DNA of 33,873 bases from Candidatus Omnitrophota bacterium (GTDB lineage: Bacteria; Omnitrophota; Gorgyraeia; Gygaellales; Profunditerraquicolaceae): NCBI GenBank assembly GCA_028712375.1, contig JAQTQG010000014.1, positions 1-33,873 on the forward strand, in the 5' to 3' direction. The translations under genes were made by a program, and so were the position numbers. Position 1 is the stretch's first letter; the number at the start of each line of letters is the position of its first letter. Under the pieces are notes generated by a model, which did no database searches, had not been told where the DNA came from, and saw only the letters and a program-made list of their open reading frames with translations. This document shows positions 6,783-29,640 of this stretch, in pieces.

Positions 6783-6834
6783 CCCCGCGTAAACATCTGG
6801 AAAATCTCTTCGATATTTTCCAGATACGCGTGGG
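6783..6834. repeat. Hairpin in the ilvC-leuA spacer
   Basis: ATCTGGAAAAT(6795-6805)/ATTTTCCAGAT(6815-6825) flanked by CCCCGCGTA / TACGCGTGGG. Confidence 0.8.
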
Positions 6835-6851
6835 ATAAATTCGCGCAACAA

Positions 6852-6930
6852 GCGCGTACTTGCGCAATTCAAGTTAGCGCAAGGTACGCGCATTAACTTA
6901 CTCACACTAGCGTGTTCGTAAGTTAAGCGC
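6852..6930. repeat. Tandem hairpins including a CTAG-loop hairpin, adjacent to the ilvC stop
   Basis: GCGCGTACTTGCGC(6852-6865)/GCGCAAGgTACGCGC(6877-6891); TTAACTTAC(6893-6901)/GTAAGTTAA(6918-6926), loop TCACACTAGCGTGTTC, flanked by GCGC. Confidence 0.85.
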
Positions 6931-7920
6931 TCATTTAATCCAAGGCATCATCTCTCTTAATTGCTTGCCTACTTTCTCAATTAAGTGATCATCCCCGGCT
7001 TTAATTAAGCTATCAAAATTCTTGCGTCCGGTTTCATTCTCTTTAATCCACTCTTTGGCGAATTTTCCGGTTTTAATCTCTTTCAAAATCTTCTGCATCT
7101 CTTTACGTGTTTTTTGCGTAATAATCCTGGGTCCGCGGGTTAAATCGCCATAACAGGCAGTGTTGGAAACTCCCCTGCGCATACCTGAAATACCGCGCTC
7201 TTGAATAAGATCCGTAATTAATTTTAACTCGTGCAAAACTTCAAAATAAGCAATCTCCGGCTGATAACCTGCGTCAATCAAAGTATCAAAACCTGCCTTG
7301 ATCAACTCACTTACTCCGCCGCAAAGTACTGCCTGTTCACCGAAGAGGTCAGTTTCTGTTTCTTCGTCAAAAGTAGTCTCGATTACGCCGGCGGTAGTAG
7401 CTTTTAAACCCTTAGCATATGCTAATGCTAAATCTTTAGCCTGTCCGCTGGCATCCTGATAAATAGCAATTAATGAAGGCACACCTTTGCCTTCTTCATA
7501 CATCTTTCTTACCAAAGCGCCCGGCCCCTTCGGAGCAACCATGAATACATCCACATTTTTCGGAGGCTTAATCTGCTTAAAACGGATATTGAATCCATGA
7601 GAAAAACAAAGCGCTTTGCCTTTTTTCAAATTCGGCTTGATTGACTCGTTATAAACCTTAGCCTGCACATGGTCCTGGGTAAGGATTTGAATGATATCCG
7701 CGGCTTTGGCTGCTTCGGCTGCGCTTACCGGAGTAAAACCGTCCTGCTTGGCCTGCGCAAAATTAGGGGTTCCTTCCATTTCAGAAACCACCACTCTTAC
7801 TCCTGAATCGCGTAAACATAAAGATTGGCCGCGGCCCTGAATCCCGTAACCGATAATTGCCACCGTCTTATCTTTTAATAAATTTAAATCCGCGTCTTTA
7901 TCATAATAAATCTTTGCCAT
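6931..7920 (-). CDS. ilvC: Ketol-acid reductoisomerase
   Basis: [82 protein letters not shown]. Confidence 0.96.
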
Positions 7921-13245: not shown

Positions 13246-13379
13246 TTTACCTTTCTCCTTGTTATTATCCCTGCTCGTTGCCTTACAAGGATTTTGTTAA
13301 ATTGAATTAAACTTTTTCAGAACCCACAATTACGCGCTTACGCTCGTAAGCATTTCGTTAAATTAAAACTTTAAGGTGC

Positions 13380-16814
<3,435 letters not shown>

Positions 16815-16832
16815 GACTCCTCCTTTAAATAA

Positions 16833-16957
16833 GCGGACAGCTTACGGAGTCCGTAAGGACGACGTAAGTTGTAGCTCCGGCTTGCCGGAGCGTCCGCGAA
16901 TTTATTCCGCCGAAATGCAAAAATTCTAGAGAATTTTTGCATGAATTTGAGGCGGAA
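16833..16957. repeat. Composite palindromic element, copy 1
   Basis: GCGGAC(16833-16838)/GTCCGC(16892-16897), enclosing CTTACGGAGTCCGTAAG and GCTCCGG-CTTG-CCGGAGC; then TTCCGCC(16905-16911)/GGCGGAA(16951-16957), enclosing ATGCAAAAATTC-TAGA-GAATTTTTGCAT. Confidence 0.85.
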
Positions 16958-16961
16958 CATT

Positions 16962-17702
16962 TTATGTTATAAATTTATCTTTTGCCGCGTTTAAATACTT
17001 ATGATCACCGATATCAAACCATGACCCGTTGAAAACATGCCCGTAAACAACAGCCCGGCCGATTAGCCAAGCAATATAGCTTCCGGTAGCATCGGCTTTT
17101 CTTTTTTTACCCAGCAGATACTTATTAATCAGATTCAAACAATCCTTCGATATATAATACAAACACATCGCCACTAAATTTGAATCCGGATGCTTAGGTT
17201 TCTCTTGGAAGCTGATTACTTGCTTTAACTCGTCTAGCTTAACTACACCGTAACGACAAGCATCTTTTGCCTGCTTTAACCTATACAGGCCTATACCGAC
17301 AGAAACAGCATTATTCTTAGAAGCAGTCAAAAACTTTTGCAAAGAACCGCTGAATAAATTGTCACCACCCACAACTAAAAGATCCTGGCAAATTTTTTTC
17401 TTCTTTATTACAAAATTTATATCTCCGATCGCTCCCAACCTATCCTGATTATTTTTAGTCAGGTCATCAACCAGAGTAATTTTTTTATGAAATTTTACTG
17501 TTTTAAACCACTTTCTAAAATCTGATATAAATTTACTATTAGTAACAATATAAATCTCATCAATGCTATCAATTACTTCTAATTTATCAATAATATAATT
17601 AATAATCGGCCGCCCTTTTACCTCCAGCAGCGGTTTAGGGTATTTTTTAGTTAATGGATACAACCGGGTAGCATACCCGGCAGCTAAAATCAAAGCTTTC
17701 AT
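16962..17702 (-). CDS. Sugar-phosphate nucleotidyltransferase (NTP_transferase, RmlA/GlmU-like)
   Basis: KALILAAGYATRLYPLTKKYPKPLLEVKGRPIINYIIDKL, GDNLF, WFDIGDHKYL. Confidence 0.88.
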   Translation of the reverse strand: MKALILAAGYATRLYPLTKKYPKPLLEVKGRPIINYIIDKLEVIDSIDEIYIVTNSKFISDFRKWFKTVKFHKKITLVDDLTKNNQDRLGAIGDINFVIKKKKICQDLLVVGGDNLFSGSLQKFLTASKNNAVSVGIGLYRLKQAKDACRYGVVKLDELKQVISFQEKPKHPDSNLVAMCLYYISKDCLNLINKYLLGKKRKADATGSYIAWLIGRAVVYGHVFNGSWFDIGDHKYLNAAKDKFIT

Positions 17703-19511: not shown

Positions 19512-19777
19512 AACTCTTCCTCGCTACTAATCAGCTTTTCCAGTTCCAGCAATGCTGCTTCAGCATCTACCCCATCAGCCTCGACAACAATTAAACTGTC
19601 TTTTTCCGCCCCCAACATAAGAATGCCCATAATGGACTTACCATTTACCTCTTCATCATCATGACGCACAGTGATCCGCGCATCAAATTTATTAGCAATT
19701 TGCACAAATACAGCAGCGGGCCGCGCATGCAATCCTTGCTTATTTTTTACGATTAATTCTTTTTTAACTAGTGGCAT
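19508..19777 (-). CDS. ptsH: HPr family phosphocarrier protein
   Basis: KNKQGLHARPAAVFVQIANKF (His15 site) and GKSIMGILML (Ser46-like site); 4-nt overlap with ptsI. Confidence 0.94.
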   Translation of the reverse strand: MPLVKKELIVKNKQGLHARPAAVFVQIANKFDARITVRHDDEEVNGKSIMGILMLGAEKDSLIVVEADGVDAEAALLELEKLISSEEEL

Positions 19778-19788
19778 TTAATGAAAGC

Positions 19789-19871
19789 TTAACTTACGAA
19801 CACGTAGTGTGAGTAAGTTAATGCGTGAATTAATCCCCGCGTTTAGCTTCAAATATAGAGAAGCTGCGGGG
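19789..19871. repeat. Double hairpin (CTTAC-type plus CCCCGC-type) in the yvcK-ptsH spacer
   Basis: TTAACTTAC(19789-19797)/GTAAGTTAA(19813-19821), loop GAACACGTAGTGTGA; CCCCGC(19835-19840)/GCGGGG(19866-19871) with AGCTTC/GAAGCT. Confidence 0.85.
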
Positions 19872-22076: not shown

Positions 22077-22134
22077 AAACCTAAATTAAATTTATTGCGC
22101 GAATCAAGCACCTTATAGCTTTTATCCAACGCAG

Positions 22135-22199
22135 TCCTTGCGAGTGCAACGAGCAAGGATAATCCCGCCTCTTGCATTCCTATATTCTATCAAGAATGC
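22135..22199. repeat. Two hairpins downstream of the frr stop
   Basis: TCCTTGC(22135-22141)/GCAAGGA(22153-22159); GCATTC(22174-22179)/GAATGC(22194-22199). Confidence 0.65.
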
Positions 22200-24193: not shown

Positions 24194-25087
24194 TTATCCT
24201 TTTTTTCTTAATTTCGGCTTAACTTCTGCAGCGGCTTTCAAATGCGCCCTTTTTACCGCTGCTGCCTCATCCGTAGGCTGGCTATCCTCAACGATCTCTT
24301 CAATCTCCTTAATCTTGATCTCTTCTTCCGGAAGGACCTCTAGAGGAATATCAGCAGCTTTGGCCTCTTCTACCTTAACTCCTTCTTGAGCAAGATAAGA
24401 AAGGAACTTCTTCCTTCCCTCAATAATGGTATCGGCAATAATTGTAACTACTGTGCGAATAGATTTAGTAGCATCATCATTGCCGGGAATTGGATAATCT
24501 ACTAAATCCGGATTGGAATTAGTATCAATCAATCCGATAACCGGAATCCCCAGCCTGCGCGCTTCGCGTACGGCTGTTTCTTCTTTTTTAGTATCTACCA
24601 CAAACGCGGCCTTGGGCATACGCTCCATAGGAACAATCCCCGAAAAGTTCTTGTTAAGCTTGGCCAGTTCTTTCTCCAGGCGCGCAATCTCTTTCTTGGT
24701 CAGCTTTTCAAACGTCCCGTCAGTACGCATCTTTTCAATATCCTTGAGACGGTTAATACTTTTTTTGATGGTAGCAAAGTTGGTAAGCATACCACCCGGC
24801 CAACGGTCCGTAACATAATACATTCCGCTGCGGATAGCTTCCTGCTTAATGACATCCTGGGCCTGTTTTTTAGTCCCCACAAAAAGAATAAATTCTCCTT
24901 TTGAAGTAATCTCGGTCAAAAAATCCCGGGCAGCATTAATACACTCCTCGGTCTTTTCCAGGTCGATAATATATATACCGCTTCTTGCTCCAAAAATAAA
25001 CTTCTTCATTTTAGGATTCCAGCGCTTGGTCTGGTGCCCAAAATGTACACCTGCTTCTAAAAGCTGTTTAATTAAATCTGATGGCAC
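24194..25087 (-). CDS. rpsB: 30S ribosomal protein uS2 with charged C-terminal extension
   Basis: [76 protein letters not shown]. Confidence 0.97.
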
Positions 25088-25305: not shown

Positions 25306-25318
25306 CTATTTTTAATAA

Positions 25319-25432
25319 GCAGATGACTTATGGAACGCTAGTGACATAAGTCATAGGCGAAGCCGTCTGCGCATTAATTCCGCCGAATACGTCAAAATTC
25401 TAGAGAATTTTGACGTAAAAACTGAGGCGGAA
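25319..25432. repeat. Composite palindromic element, copy 2
   Basis: GCAGA(25319-25323)/TCTGC(25366-25370), enclosing TGACTTATG(25324-25332)/CATAAGTCA(25345-25353); then TTCCGCC(25378-25384)/GGCGGAA(25426-25432), enclosing TACGTCAAAATTC-TAGA-GAATTTTGACGTA. Confidence 0.87.
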
Positions 25433-25443
25433 CAAATTTTAAC

Positions 25444-27234
25444 TTACTTCTGTAACTCTTGAGCTTCATACAACCGCTTATATAAACCGTTATTTTCCAA
25501 TAACTGGCTATGCGTCCCCTGCTCAACAATCAAGCCTTTATCTAAAACCACGATCCTATTGGCATTTCTTACTGTGGATAGCCGGTGCGCAATCATAAAC
25601 ACTGTCCTGCCGCTGACTAGCCGGTCCAGCGCTTCCTGCACAAGACGTTCAGATGTAGAATCCAGCTGTGAAGTAGCCTCATCCAGGATTAATATCGGGG
25701 CATCCTTAAGCAACGCGCGGGCAATCGCAATCCGCTGGCGCTCTCCTCCGGAAATCATTACCCCCCGGTCGCCGATAACTGTATCATAACCTTGCGGGCA
25801 ATTCATTATAAAATCATGCGCATGCGCTTTTTTCGCCGCCTCCTCTATTTCACTAATCGTAGCGCTGGGCTTGCCATAAGCAATATTAGAACGGATTGTA
25901 TCATTAAACAGCATGGTTTCCTGATTAACTATGCCTATCTGGCTGCGCAAAGACTTCAAGCTGAACTCGCGGATATTTACCCCGTCGATCAATACCGCTC
26001 CACTTTGCGGGTCATAAAAACGCGGGATCAAATCTACCAGAGTACTTTTACCTGAGCCGCTGGGGCCGACAATCGCCAGCATCTGCCCGTATTCGATCTC
26101 CAAATCAAGGCCTTTAAGAATCTGCGTATCGGCATAACTAAAATAGATGCCGTTAAATTTAATATTTTTTCTGAAGCTGCCCAGAATCTTGGCCGGCTGA
26201 GGCTCTTTAACACTGATCTCCGTTTCCAACACCTCATGAATACGCTCGCTGGCAGCCATAGCCTGCTGATTAAGGGCATTGACTTGGCTTAATTTTTTAA
26301 ATGGCCGGATCAGAGATAGTAACGAACCCAAGAAAAGGCCAAAAACCCCGAATGACAGCCTTCCAGCGATAACCTCACGCCCTCCCCAGAAAAAAACCAA
26401 AACACCCGCCACTACTCCCAAGAATTCTGTAGACGGATTAAGCAAAAGCGAACGTTTAATCGTCTTCATGCAAATCTTATAATAATCCGCATTTACCCGG
26501 TTAAATTTATTAACCTCATACTCTTCCATGTTAAAAGCCTTAACAATCCTGGCTCCCATAATCGTTTCATAAAGCAAAGAATTGGTATCGGCGATCTTTT
26601 CCTGAGAACGCTTAGAAAGTTTCCTTAAAGCTTTACCGACTTTGATAATCGGAAAACTAATCAGGGGCAGAAAAACAAATGAAACCAGGGCCATCTTAAA
26701 ATAGATAAAGAAAATAACTGTAGCGAAAATAACCACCTGCAGGCTCTGATAGATTAAATCCGTCGAGCCGTAGGATACGGCGTTCTCCACAAGCTTAACA
26801 TCATTGGTAATCCGCGACATCAGTTCCCCGCCGCGTTTATGCGTAAAATAATTGAGCGATAATGACTGGATCTTGGTATAAAGCTGGCTTTTGATATCCC
26901 GGATTACCCTTTGGCCGATATCCGACATCAAATAAGTTTGTAAAAATCCAAAAATTCCCTTGAATAAAAAAAGCAATAAAACAACTACTACCATATAGTT
27001 AAGCAGTATTTCCGGGGGAGTATTATTTATTTTATCCACAAAACTTACCAGGAAATCCGGCAATTTGGTGGGGATAATGATCTTTTTGTTAGTCAGCACC
27101 TTATCCGCCAAAGGCACCATCATTGCCAAAGATACGCCGTCAAATACCGCCGAAACCCCCATACAGACAATCGCGGCCAGAAAAAGCCACTTATAAGGTT
27201 TCACAAATTGTAATAATTTTAAATAATCTTTCAT
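25444..27234 (-). CDS. msbA: MsbA-type lipid A/lipid ABC exporter (fused permease and ATPase)
   Basis: ABC_membrane plus ATPase: VGPSGSGKSTLVDLIPRFYDPQSGAVLIDG, ISGGERQRIAIARALLKDAPILILDEATSQLDSTSE, MIAHRLSTV; close to lpxB. Confidence 0.85.
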   Translation of the reverse strand: MKDYLKLLQFVKPYKWLFLAAIVCMGVSAVFDGVSLAMMVPLADKVLTNKKIIIPTKLPDFLVSFVDKINNTPPEILLNYMVVVVLLLFLFKGIFGFLQTYLMSDIGQRVIRDIKSQLYTKIQSLSLNYFTHKRGGELMSRITNDVKLVENAVSYGSTDLIYQSLQVVIFATVIFFIYFKMALVSFVFLPLISFPIIKVGKALRKLSKRSQEKIADTNSLLYETIMGARIVKAFNMEEYEVNKFNRVNADYYKICMKTIKRSLLLNPSTEFLGVVAGVLVFFWGGREVIAGRLSFGVFGLFLGSLLSLIRPFKKLSQVNALNQQAMAASERIHEVLETEISVKEPQPAKILGSFRKNIKFNGIYFSYADTQILKGLDLEIEYGQMLAIVGPSGSGKSTLVDLIPRFYDPQSGAVLIDGVNIREFSLKSLRSQIGIVNQETMLFNDTIRSNIAYGKPSATISEIEEAAKKAHAHDFIMNCPQGYDTVIGDRGVMISGGERQRIAIARALLKDAPILILDEATSQLDSTSERLVQEALDRLVSGRTVFMIAHRLSTVRNANRIVVLDKGLIVEQGTHSQLLENNGLYKRLYEAQELQK

Positions 27235-27343: not shown

Positions 27344-27404
27344 ATACTTGCTCACACTAGCGTGTTCGTAAGTCAAGTGCTCATTAAATTCCTATTGCAA
27401 GTAT
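27344..27404. repeat. CTAG-hairpin repeat inside a larger inverted repeat upstream of the Gfo/Idh gene
   Basis: 27351-27385 matches 6901-6935 at 33 of 35 positions; outer ATACTTGC(27344-27351)/GCAAGTAT(27397-27404). Confidence 0.85.
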
Positions 27405-28348: not shown

Positions 28349-29580
28349 ACCTGCTTAAAACCCTTTTCTTCAGAAAATTTGATAAGCGAAATACTCAAGC
28401 GGCCACCATCTGTTCACTTTCCACGGAAAACAATTTTAAGCCGCGGAGTGTAAGAAAAATTTTTATTGTTTGCGGGGAGCCCTCCGGAGACCTTCTGGCG
28501 GGTAACCTTGTATCGGCAATGCAAAAAATCAATCCGCAAATAAAATTCTGCGGCGTAGGCGGTTTACGCCTGGCTGAAACACAAACAAAAATCCTCTACG
28601 ATATCGGCGAATTATCAGTTATGGGTTTTTTCGATGTTTTAAAAAAACTGCCTAAATTTTTACAGTTAAAAAAAATAATCTTAAAACAGATCGAAACCGC
28701 TAAACCGGATTGCTTAATTTTGGTCGACTTTTCCGGTTTTAACCTGCGCCTGGCAAAAGCAGTCAACAAACGCATACCGGTTATTTACTATGTCAGCCCG
28801 CAAATCTGGGCTTCCCGGGAAGGCAGAATAAACTGTATAAAAAAATTTATCTCAAAAATCTTCGTGCTTTTTAAATTCGAAGAAGAGTTCTACAAACAGC
28901 GCCAAATACAAGCAACCTGGGTAGGGCACCCTTTAATAGATTTAGTAAAACCATCGGCAGAAAAAAACGGCTTACTGGATACCTCCGGAATAAATCCTGA
29001 TAAAAAAATTATTGCTTTGCTTCCCGGTTCACGTAAACAAGAAATCAGGTTAATCCTGCCGATAATGCTTAAAGCTGCCAGCCTCATTAATAAAACAATC
29101 CCCCAAACACAATTTATCATTGCTAAAGCCCCGAACCTGGATACCCGGATATACCTGGCGGAATGTAAAAAATTTGCTTTGGATTTAAAAATTATTAATG
29201 GCCGGACGCATGACTGCCTGAACATTGCGCAGGCCAGCATGGTTTGTTCAGGTACTGCTACTTTAGAAGCAGCAATCATACAAAAACCCTTTGTAATTGT
29301 ATACAAAACTAATCTGTTTAATTATTTACTCTACCGGCCGCAGATAAAAGTCCCTTACATCGGGATGGCCAACATTGTGGCAGGAAAAAAAGTAGTCCCG
29401 GAATTTATCCAATTCGGCGCCCGGCCGGAAGCAATTGCCGGTTCCATTGTTGAATTATTACAAAACCCTCTCTCTGCCAGCCAGATGAGCAAGGAATTAA
29501 AAATTATAAAAGATACTCTGGGGGCTCCCGGAGCAGCAGAACGGGCAGCTAAACTCATTTTAGACTTTCTTCAAAAATAA
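28345..29580 (+). CDS. lpxB: Lipid-A-disaccharide synthase
   Basis: KIFIVCGEPSGDLLAGNLVSAM, GVGGLRLAE, SPQIWASREGRI, FKFEEEFYK, WVGHPLID, LPGSRKQEIRLILP, CSGTATLEAAI. Start at ATG 28345 overlaps the upstream stop; the track start is 28336. Confidence 0.93.
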   Translation: MNLLKTLFFRKFDKRNTQAATICSLSTENNFKPRSVRKIFIVCGEPSGDLLAGNLVSAMQKINPQIKFCGVGGLRLAETQTKILYDIGELSVMGFFDVLKKLPKFLQLKKIILKQIETAKPDCLILVDFSGFNLRLAKAVNKRIPVIYYVSPQIWASREGRINCIKKFISKIFVLFKFEEEFYKQRQIQATWVGHPLIDLVKPSAEKNGLLDTSGINPDKKIIALLPGSRKQEIRLILPIMLKAASLINKTIPQTQFIIAKAPNLDTRIYLAECKKFALDLKIINGRTHDCLNIAQASMVCSGTATLEAAIIQKPFVIVYKTNLFNYLLYRPQIKVPYIGMANIVAGKKVVPEFIQFGARPEAIAGSIVELLQNPLSASQMSKELKIIKDTLGAPGAAERAAKLILDFLQK

Positions 29581-29640
29581 AGGGACCGTTTCTATTTTTT
29601 AGAATTAAACTCAAGAAAAATAGAAACGGTCCCTTTATTT
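29575..29640. terminator. 25-bp perfect inverted repeat between convergent genes, probable bidirectional terminator
   Basis: AAATAAAGGGACCGTTTCTATTTTT (29575-29599) / 16-nt loop / AAAAATAGAAACGGTCCCTTTATTT (29616-29640); includes both stop codons. Confidence 0.75.

Follow-up and report, generated by a model that had tools for sequence, protein, structure and literature searches.

The two composite palindromes found in the window, that is, the whole stretch of 33,873 nucleotides analysed here, which is contig C27 of a 1.65 Mb Omnitrophota MAG (the host genome), belong to a family of interspersed repeats that is spread throughout the phylum Omnitrophota and inserts at gene junctions. We consider it probable that this family constitutes a non-autonomous mobile palindromic repeat with the plan A-C-A', which decays after its insertion and would be moved in trans as folded single-stranded DNA. 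An earlier note on this DNA had described two alike elements at 16833-16957 and 25319-25432 and had suggested that they represent one family of structured elements, possibly BIME/REP-like or non-autonomous and mobile. Both elements are present at these positions with the layout described, except that module A begins ∼9 nt ahead of the start then given, and the proposal is supported by additional copies, by covariation and by the occurrence of filled and empty sites. Both elements folded far better than their dinucleotide shuffles (z -8.5 and -7.5), with none of 200 shuffles being as good. Exact matches to TTCCGCCGAA within the window were confined to these two loci, and the core AAATTCTAGAGAATTT occurred five times in the host genome, twice at the window loci and otherwise at places showing the same modules, its reversed-pattern control yielding no match. 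An Rfam 15 search of the window recovered tRNAs only, and even raising E to 5 brought no credible match at the elements.

Read on the strand of the finding, module A opens with T-N-AAT, followed by GA, a GC-stem, an inner stem (often ACTTACG), GA and a short stem with its loop, and returns through GA, the inner stem (often CGTAAGT), the GC-stem and GA to ATT-N'-A, with a small extra arm within the module in some copies, both window copies included. A single arm comprises ∼60-90 bp, and in the full unit module A, a closed central arm C and an inverted module A' abut without linkers. Neighbouring A and A' modules lying within 450 bp of each other appeared in the same (+,-) order in 42 out of 42 cases. 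These pairs span 133-413 bp, and the spacer closed into one arm in all but five of the 42 (37 pairs). Both ends of the unit read inwards ∼TTNAA(A/G)TGAG, forming terminal inverted repeats, though the exact ends of the element are uncertain by ∼3 nt. The two window copies consist of C and A, without A' (Table 1). In these copies TTCCGCC and GGCGGAA are the paired arms themselves, with a GA/GA mismatch at the inner end, and the outer stem runs on outwards past another mismatch into T-N-AAT/ATT-N'-A; most family copies have GA/GA as this mismatch, whereas AA/GA or AA/CA occurs in both copies of the window. Copy 1 joins a T-N-AAT-type outer stem (degenerate mismatch AA/GA) and a GCGGAC/GTCCGC stem to the arms GCTTACG-GA-GTCC(GTAA)GGAC-GA-CGTAAGT and GCTCCGGC/GCCGGAGC, and copy 2 has a GCAGA/TCTGC stem with the arms GACTTATG-GA-AC(GCTA)GT-GA-CATAAGTC and GGC(GAA)GCC.

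Table 1. Repeat copies and flanking genes in the window
Feature	Positions	Strand	Basis
Module A, copy 1	16824..16907	+	covariance-model match, E 2.5e-12; fold
Module C, copy 1: TTCCGCC-GA...ATGCAAAAATTC(TAGA)GAATTTTTGCAT...GA-GGCGGAA	16905..16957	+	sequence; fold; covariation with 10 other copies
Module A, copy 2	25310..25380	+	covariance-model match, E 5.9e-12; fold
Module C, copy 2: TTCCGCC-GA-A-TACGTCAAAATTC(TAGA)GAATTTTGACGTA...GA-GGCGGAA	25378..25432	+	sequence; covariation
Third copy of module A (CTTAC-GA-ACACGTAGTGT-GA-GTAAG type), between yvcK-like and ptsH-like genes	19776..19836	+	E 7.9e-10; empty site in relatives
Fourth copy of module A, orientation opposite to the other three	6833..6939	-	E 1.3e-10
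Degenerate half copy of module A, 91% identical to 6896-6939	27346..27391	-	repeat search; below covariance-model reach
Nucleotidyltransferase (NTase), gene upstream of copy 1, its stop codon 5 nt away	16962..17702	-	
metK, downstream gene of copy 1; element stops just short of its AGGAGG	15645..16814	-	
ABC transporter, gene upstream of copy 2, its stop codon 12 nt away	25444..27234	-	
rpsB, downstream gene of copy 2; conserved upstream region AATAGTTGCAA.. directly after element	24194..25087	-	

Other structured repeats were also observed. Some copies (L004, L005, L066) carry an extra hairpin between A and C. A second recurrent hairpin family, TTGAGCAC..TTTAACGAAAT..CCTTGC-GA-GTGAAAC-GA-GCAAGG, with GA/GA and a GNA loop, is located at 22107-22165 and 13338-13385 of the window as well as in L004, L005, L066 and L012, at times between modules A and C and at times alone. 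Beside a module A copy on another contig of the host genome (L113:1586-1714, G000:C42), there are 2.7 perfect tandem copies of a 47-bp unit (CCACCTGGCGGACACTCACGCAATTCCAATTAGCGTGAGGTGTAAAC), and near two gene ends of the window two arms of 25 bp, separated by 16 nt, form a perfect inverted repeat (29575-29640; AAATAAAGGGACCGTTTCTATTTTT).

The dispersion of the family was assessed with a covariance model of the outer module (A), built from 25 copies found by scanning related loci. The search for more copies that the earlier note had advised yielded 24 module A copies at E <= 4e-4 in the host genome, four of them in the window, and from 0 to 63 copies per relative. Among 237 genomes sampled across the phylum Omnitrophota, to which this survey was directed, 160 (about two thirds) contained matches, with best E values down to 1e-16; the copy counts of the survey are lower bounds, since only some candidates were scored per genome. 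No match to the family appeared among phage, plasmid and viral-contig records. Within one genus the distribution was patchy, with no copies in the genomes G006, G016 and G021 and 32 in G026, and in G028 dispersed copies were near-identical; taken together, this patchiness and the near-identical copies indicate repeated expansion. Quasi-palindrome correction is able to make perfect inverted repeats, and chance or AT-rich palindromes arising from local replication slippage, with no common descent, might in principle be envisaged. That origin is refuted by the phylum-wide matches, by modules in fixed order, by the near-identical dispersed copies of G028 and by the absence of core matches in the control, and its probability is next to nil.

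The earlier note had also pointed out that substitutions were matched on both arms, and this holds in many more copies, for the TTCCGCC hairpin as well as for the outer stem. In module A, 93% of cells paired, versus 78% with partners shuffled and at most 38% when slid, the shuffle controls ignoring relatedness and the copies being drawn from many families; among the cells that differ, 82 were double and 6 single-sided changes. Module C, the central hairpin of TTCCGCC type, paired in 99% of cells, with 26 double changes against one single-sided. G-T pairs amounted to 1.6% in the arms (52/3332), versus 6.1% for G-U (39/643) in tRNA stems from related loci. Double changes almost without intermediates, together with so few G-T pairs, fit better with a constraint or repair at the DNA level than with selection on RNA. 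Replicative template switching could itself yield perfect palindromes and double changes and might contribute to this pattern, yet such repair should remove the GA/GA mismatches, which most copies have.

These tandem mismatches are conserved in the arms. Inner-loop GA/GA was observed in 117 of ∼175 cases, in addition to 20 with GA/GAA, and the outer loop displayed GA in 165 of 179 on each side. Apical loops of three or four bases were GNA or GNNA in 88 of 115 cases, 41 of them being GNA triloops; since 32 of the 47 GNNA loops have a pyrimidine at position 3, they are not GNRA, unlike the GNRA loops of RNA. In 160 of 176 arms the strand bearing GA folded better than the other, with RNA and DNA parameters alike. 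In single-stranded DNA, loops of the d(GNA) and d(GNNA) type, as well as tandem GA, have an unusually high stability. The GA/GA mismatches, the loops and the scarcity of G-T pairs suggest that the constrained form is folded single-stranded DNA. In modules A and C it is the template strand of the flanking genes that carries GA/GA and the GNA/GNNA loops, and in A' it is the other strand, so that the arms are not all presented on one strand, which counts against the reading favoured here. Recognition of the REP sequences of E. coli also needs a conserved stem mismatch (PMC8266576), which makes recognition through GA/GA plausible.

Copies of the repeat insert, as deduced from orthologous gene junctions that are filled here and empty in close relatives. 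The junction between the nucleotidyltransferase gene and metK is short, a few tens of nucleotides or less, and element-free in L014, L015, L017, L020, L022 and L023; L049 holds at this junction a homologous copy whose inner stem is different but perfectly paired. At the ABC-rpsB junction the element is present in the host and absent from all close relatives examined, while the yvcK-ptsH junction, of 14-17 nt in L009-L011, contains a module A copy in the host and an independent copy in L020. The copy at 6833-6939 provides the stop codon of an ilvC-like gene, which ends in ATT AAA TGA in the host and in ATG AAG AAG TAG in the relative L011. Among the sense-oriented arms that overlap a stop codon, 13 of 15 use a TAA in the first bases of the arm. 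As for the traces of integration, k-mer matches (k = 4 to 9) between the flanks of the 42 units did not leave the range seen with permuted pairs, with boundaries defined to ±∼3 nt, hence giving no sign of target-site duplication on this scale. The outer TTAA was also rejected as a target duplication: its variable base pairs across the arm (columns 5/103, with 10 double changes) and it is no direct repeat.

The minus-strand stop codons, placed by the earlier note within about a dozen nt of the two window elements, are 5 nt (16962) and 12 nt (25444) away from them, and across the family copies adjoin the stop codon and the ribosome-binding site, in line with the post-stop positions that the earlier note had expected. 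A downstream gene lies on the expected side of 97 A copies; 46 of these have the complement of a ribosome-binding site within 20 nt, and none of the 97 has one on the reverse strand. Selection against operon disruption is enough to explain this adjacency to stop codons and ribosome-binding sites. Neither window hairpin is followed by a T-run in the direction of the genes, as previously noted, so that the elements do not qualify as intrinsic terminators. Approximately 90% of copies share one orientation, A being placed in the same sense relative to both flanking genes in 69 cases versus 6. In the single-contig genome G128 (L228-L259) most coding bases are co-oriented with GC skew, so that, in the one genome checked, replication and transcription are inseparable as causes of this orientation. 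The sign of the GC skew in G128 changes between ∼0.9 and 1.1 Mb.

The stop-to-RBS seat, the covarying stems and the fixed orientation with respect to transcription are the properties that an RNA element of operon mRNAs would display, one acting mainly in processing, stabilisation or attenuation and spread through its usefulness. We regard this explanation as rather improbable, given that the mRNA strand of A and C carries UC/UC mismatches and UNNC loops, that the opposite strand folds better and G-U pairs are few, and that copy number is patchy even inside a genus (0 to 32) with flanking genes of no evident common function; moreover, the orientation itself is confounded with replication.

When compared with known systems, the repeats resemble REPIN and BOX elements, and none of the named families agrees with them in full. 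Like the REPINs or BIMEs of Pseudomonas and E. coli (PMC3116915, PMC3733652), they have two inverted palindromes around a hairpin-forming spacer, an extragenic location, a high copy number and compensatory changes, and the ends of GTAG REPs may likewise give flanking genes a stop codon (PMC3733652). In contrast to REPINs, arms of at least ∼60 nt with tandem GA/GA, three abutting arms, the lack of a GTAG/CGTC foot and of RAYT association, and a spread over a whole phylum characterize the Omnitrophota repeat. A GTAG or CGTC REP was discarded on its foot, which here is a paired, covarying T-N-AAT/ATT-N'-A followed by GA/GA instead of an unpaired GTAG/GGAG/CGTC, on its transposase association, which was not observed here, and as a simple palindrome of 20-40 bp, given the size of arm and unit; GTAG does occur inside some A modules ahead of the small inner arm and is absent from most copies. 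The pneumococcal BOX (PMC3049150), compared by plan alone, is likewise a composite of structured modules (boxA-boxB(n)-boxC) that varies in length and lacks its own transposase, but it has been described from pneumococcus and makes target-site duplications, none being detected here. The subterminal hairpins of IS200/IS605 and the 'atypical secondary structures' of class 3 Y1 (PMC6006769) are similar in their mismatched single-strand hairpins and many enzyme-free copies, whereas in class 3 the enzyme gene is flanked by these structures and their foot is CnGA, the Omnitrophota foot being paired T-N-AAT and no tested Y1 gene being flanked. Classical MITEs are likewise short, non-coding and inserted between genes with inverted ends; the terminal inverted repeats that define the DDE type are present here, but the ends are the hairpins themselves and target-site duplication gave no signal.

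The REPIN plan, the covarying extragenic palindromes (PMC3116915), the presence of Y1 genes in 49 of 58 relatives and the stem mismatch needed by E. coli REP (PMC8266576) could all be accommodated by a true REPIN/BIME moved by a RAYT (Y1 HUH) enzyme of Omnitrophota genomes, a link that the earlier note had suggested checking. This link did not materialize, and such an origin appears unlikely. None of 20 Y1 loci from copy-bearing relatives had a module nearby, although a RAYT gene flanked by the same repeats is expected of a REPIN, and copy number bore no relation to Y1 count (Spearman -0.10, p 0.47): no Y1 match was obtained in G037 (30 copies) and G029 (43 copies), and G006 and G021 have 6 and 4 Y1 genes and no copies. 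The RAYT-like gene of the host (167 aa, L007:1190-1770, G000:C20) is flanked on both sides by its own, different palindrome, GTAGGNGACGTTTAAACGTCNCCTAC, which occurs nowhere else in the host genome, and the base of the Omnitrophota arm lacks the unpaired foot. Another gene of the host genome (L006:616-1884, minus strand, G000:C28) encodes a protein of 422 aa, in which a Y1_Tnp (HUH) domain at the N-terminus is followed by a long extension. A c-di-GMP-I riboswitch (RF01051, 51-60 bits) is located upstream of it (L006:2001-2079, minus strand), as in both relatives checked (L149 and L162), and this Y1 transposase-like protein is possibly under c-di-GMP control. Integron attC-like recombination sites resemble the repeat in that they too are palindromes folded from a single strand, located at gene ends and containing conserved unpaired bases, but an integrase scored above the cut-off in only one of 58 genomes and copies are scattered in core operons with no cassette arrays seen, which makes this kinship extremely improbable. 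In the part of the genomes read, no A/A' unit of element size (42 pairs) enclosed a gene. Neither the Y1/RAYT genes, nor the integron integrase, nor genes inside units provided a mobilising enzyme; the CGTC REPs set a precedent for repeats without a dedicated transposase (PMC3733652).

Returning to the non-autonomous mobile repeat that we favour, a complete unit of ∼130-410 bp, with two similar inverted arms around a central hairpin, would insert into short junctions of co-directional genes, after the stop codon of the first gene and ahead of the ribosome-binding site of the second, and would often bring the stop codon itself. Later decay would leave C and A, as in both window copies, or A alone. 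The moving form would likely be folded single-stranded DNA, with the tandem GA/GA mismatches and the GNA/GNNA loops serving for its recognition. Mobilisation in trans might depend on an enzyme that recognises hairpins and is encoded by the host or belonged to an autonomous element now vanished. More tentatively, the family might stand for a phylum-wide class of mobile DNA in which tandem sheared G.A mismatches within three-arm single-strand folds serve as the recognition code of an enzyme other than Y1/RAYT, a possibility that we consider doubtful at present.

Omnitrophota are mostly known from metagenomes, and we found no account of their interspersed repeats; a literature search outside subscription journals returned no paper pairing Omnitrophota with 'repetitive extragenic palindromic'. 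The conserved pattern of mismatches and loops offers a testable recognition code, and the family poses the same question as the CGTC REPs, namely how repeats lacking an enzyme dedicated to them are able to spread; the data set available for addressing it is very large. Overall, one family reaches up to ∼60 copies per small genome and occupies the junctions of core operons, including those of metK, rpsB and ptsH, and through this placement the repeats can affect both operon expression and genome comparison.
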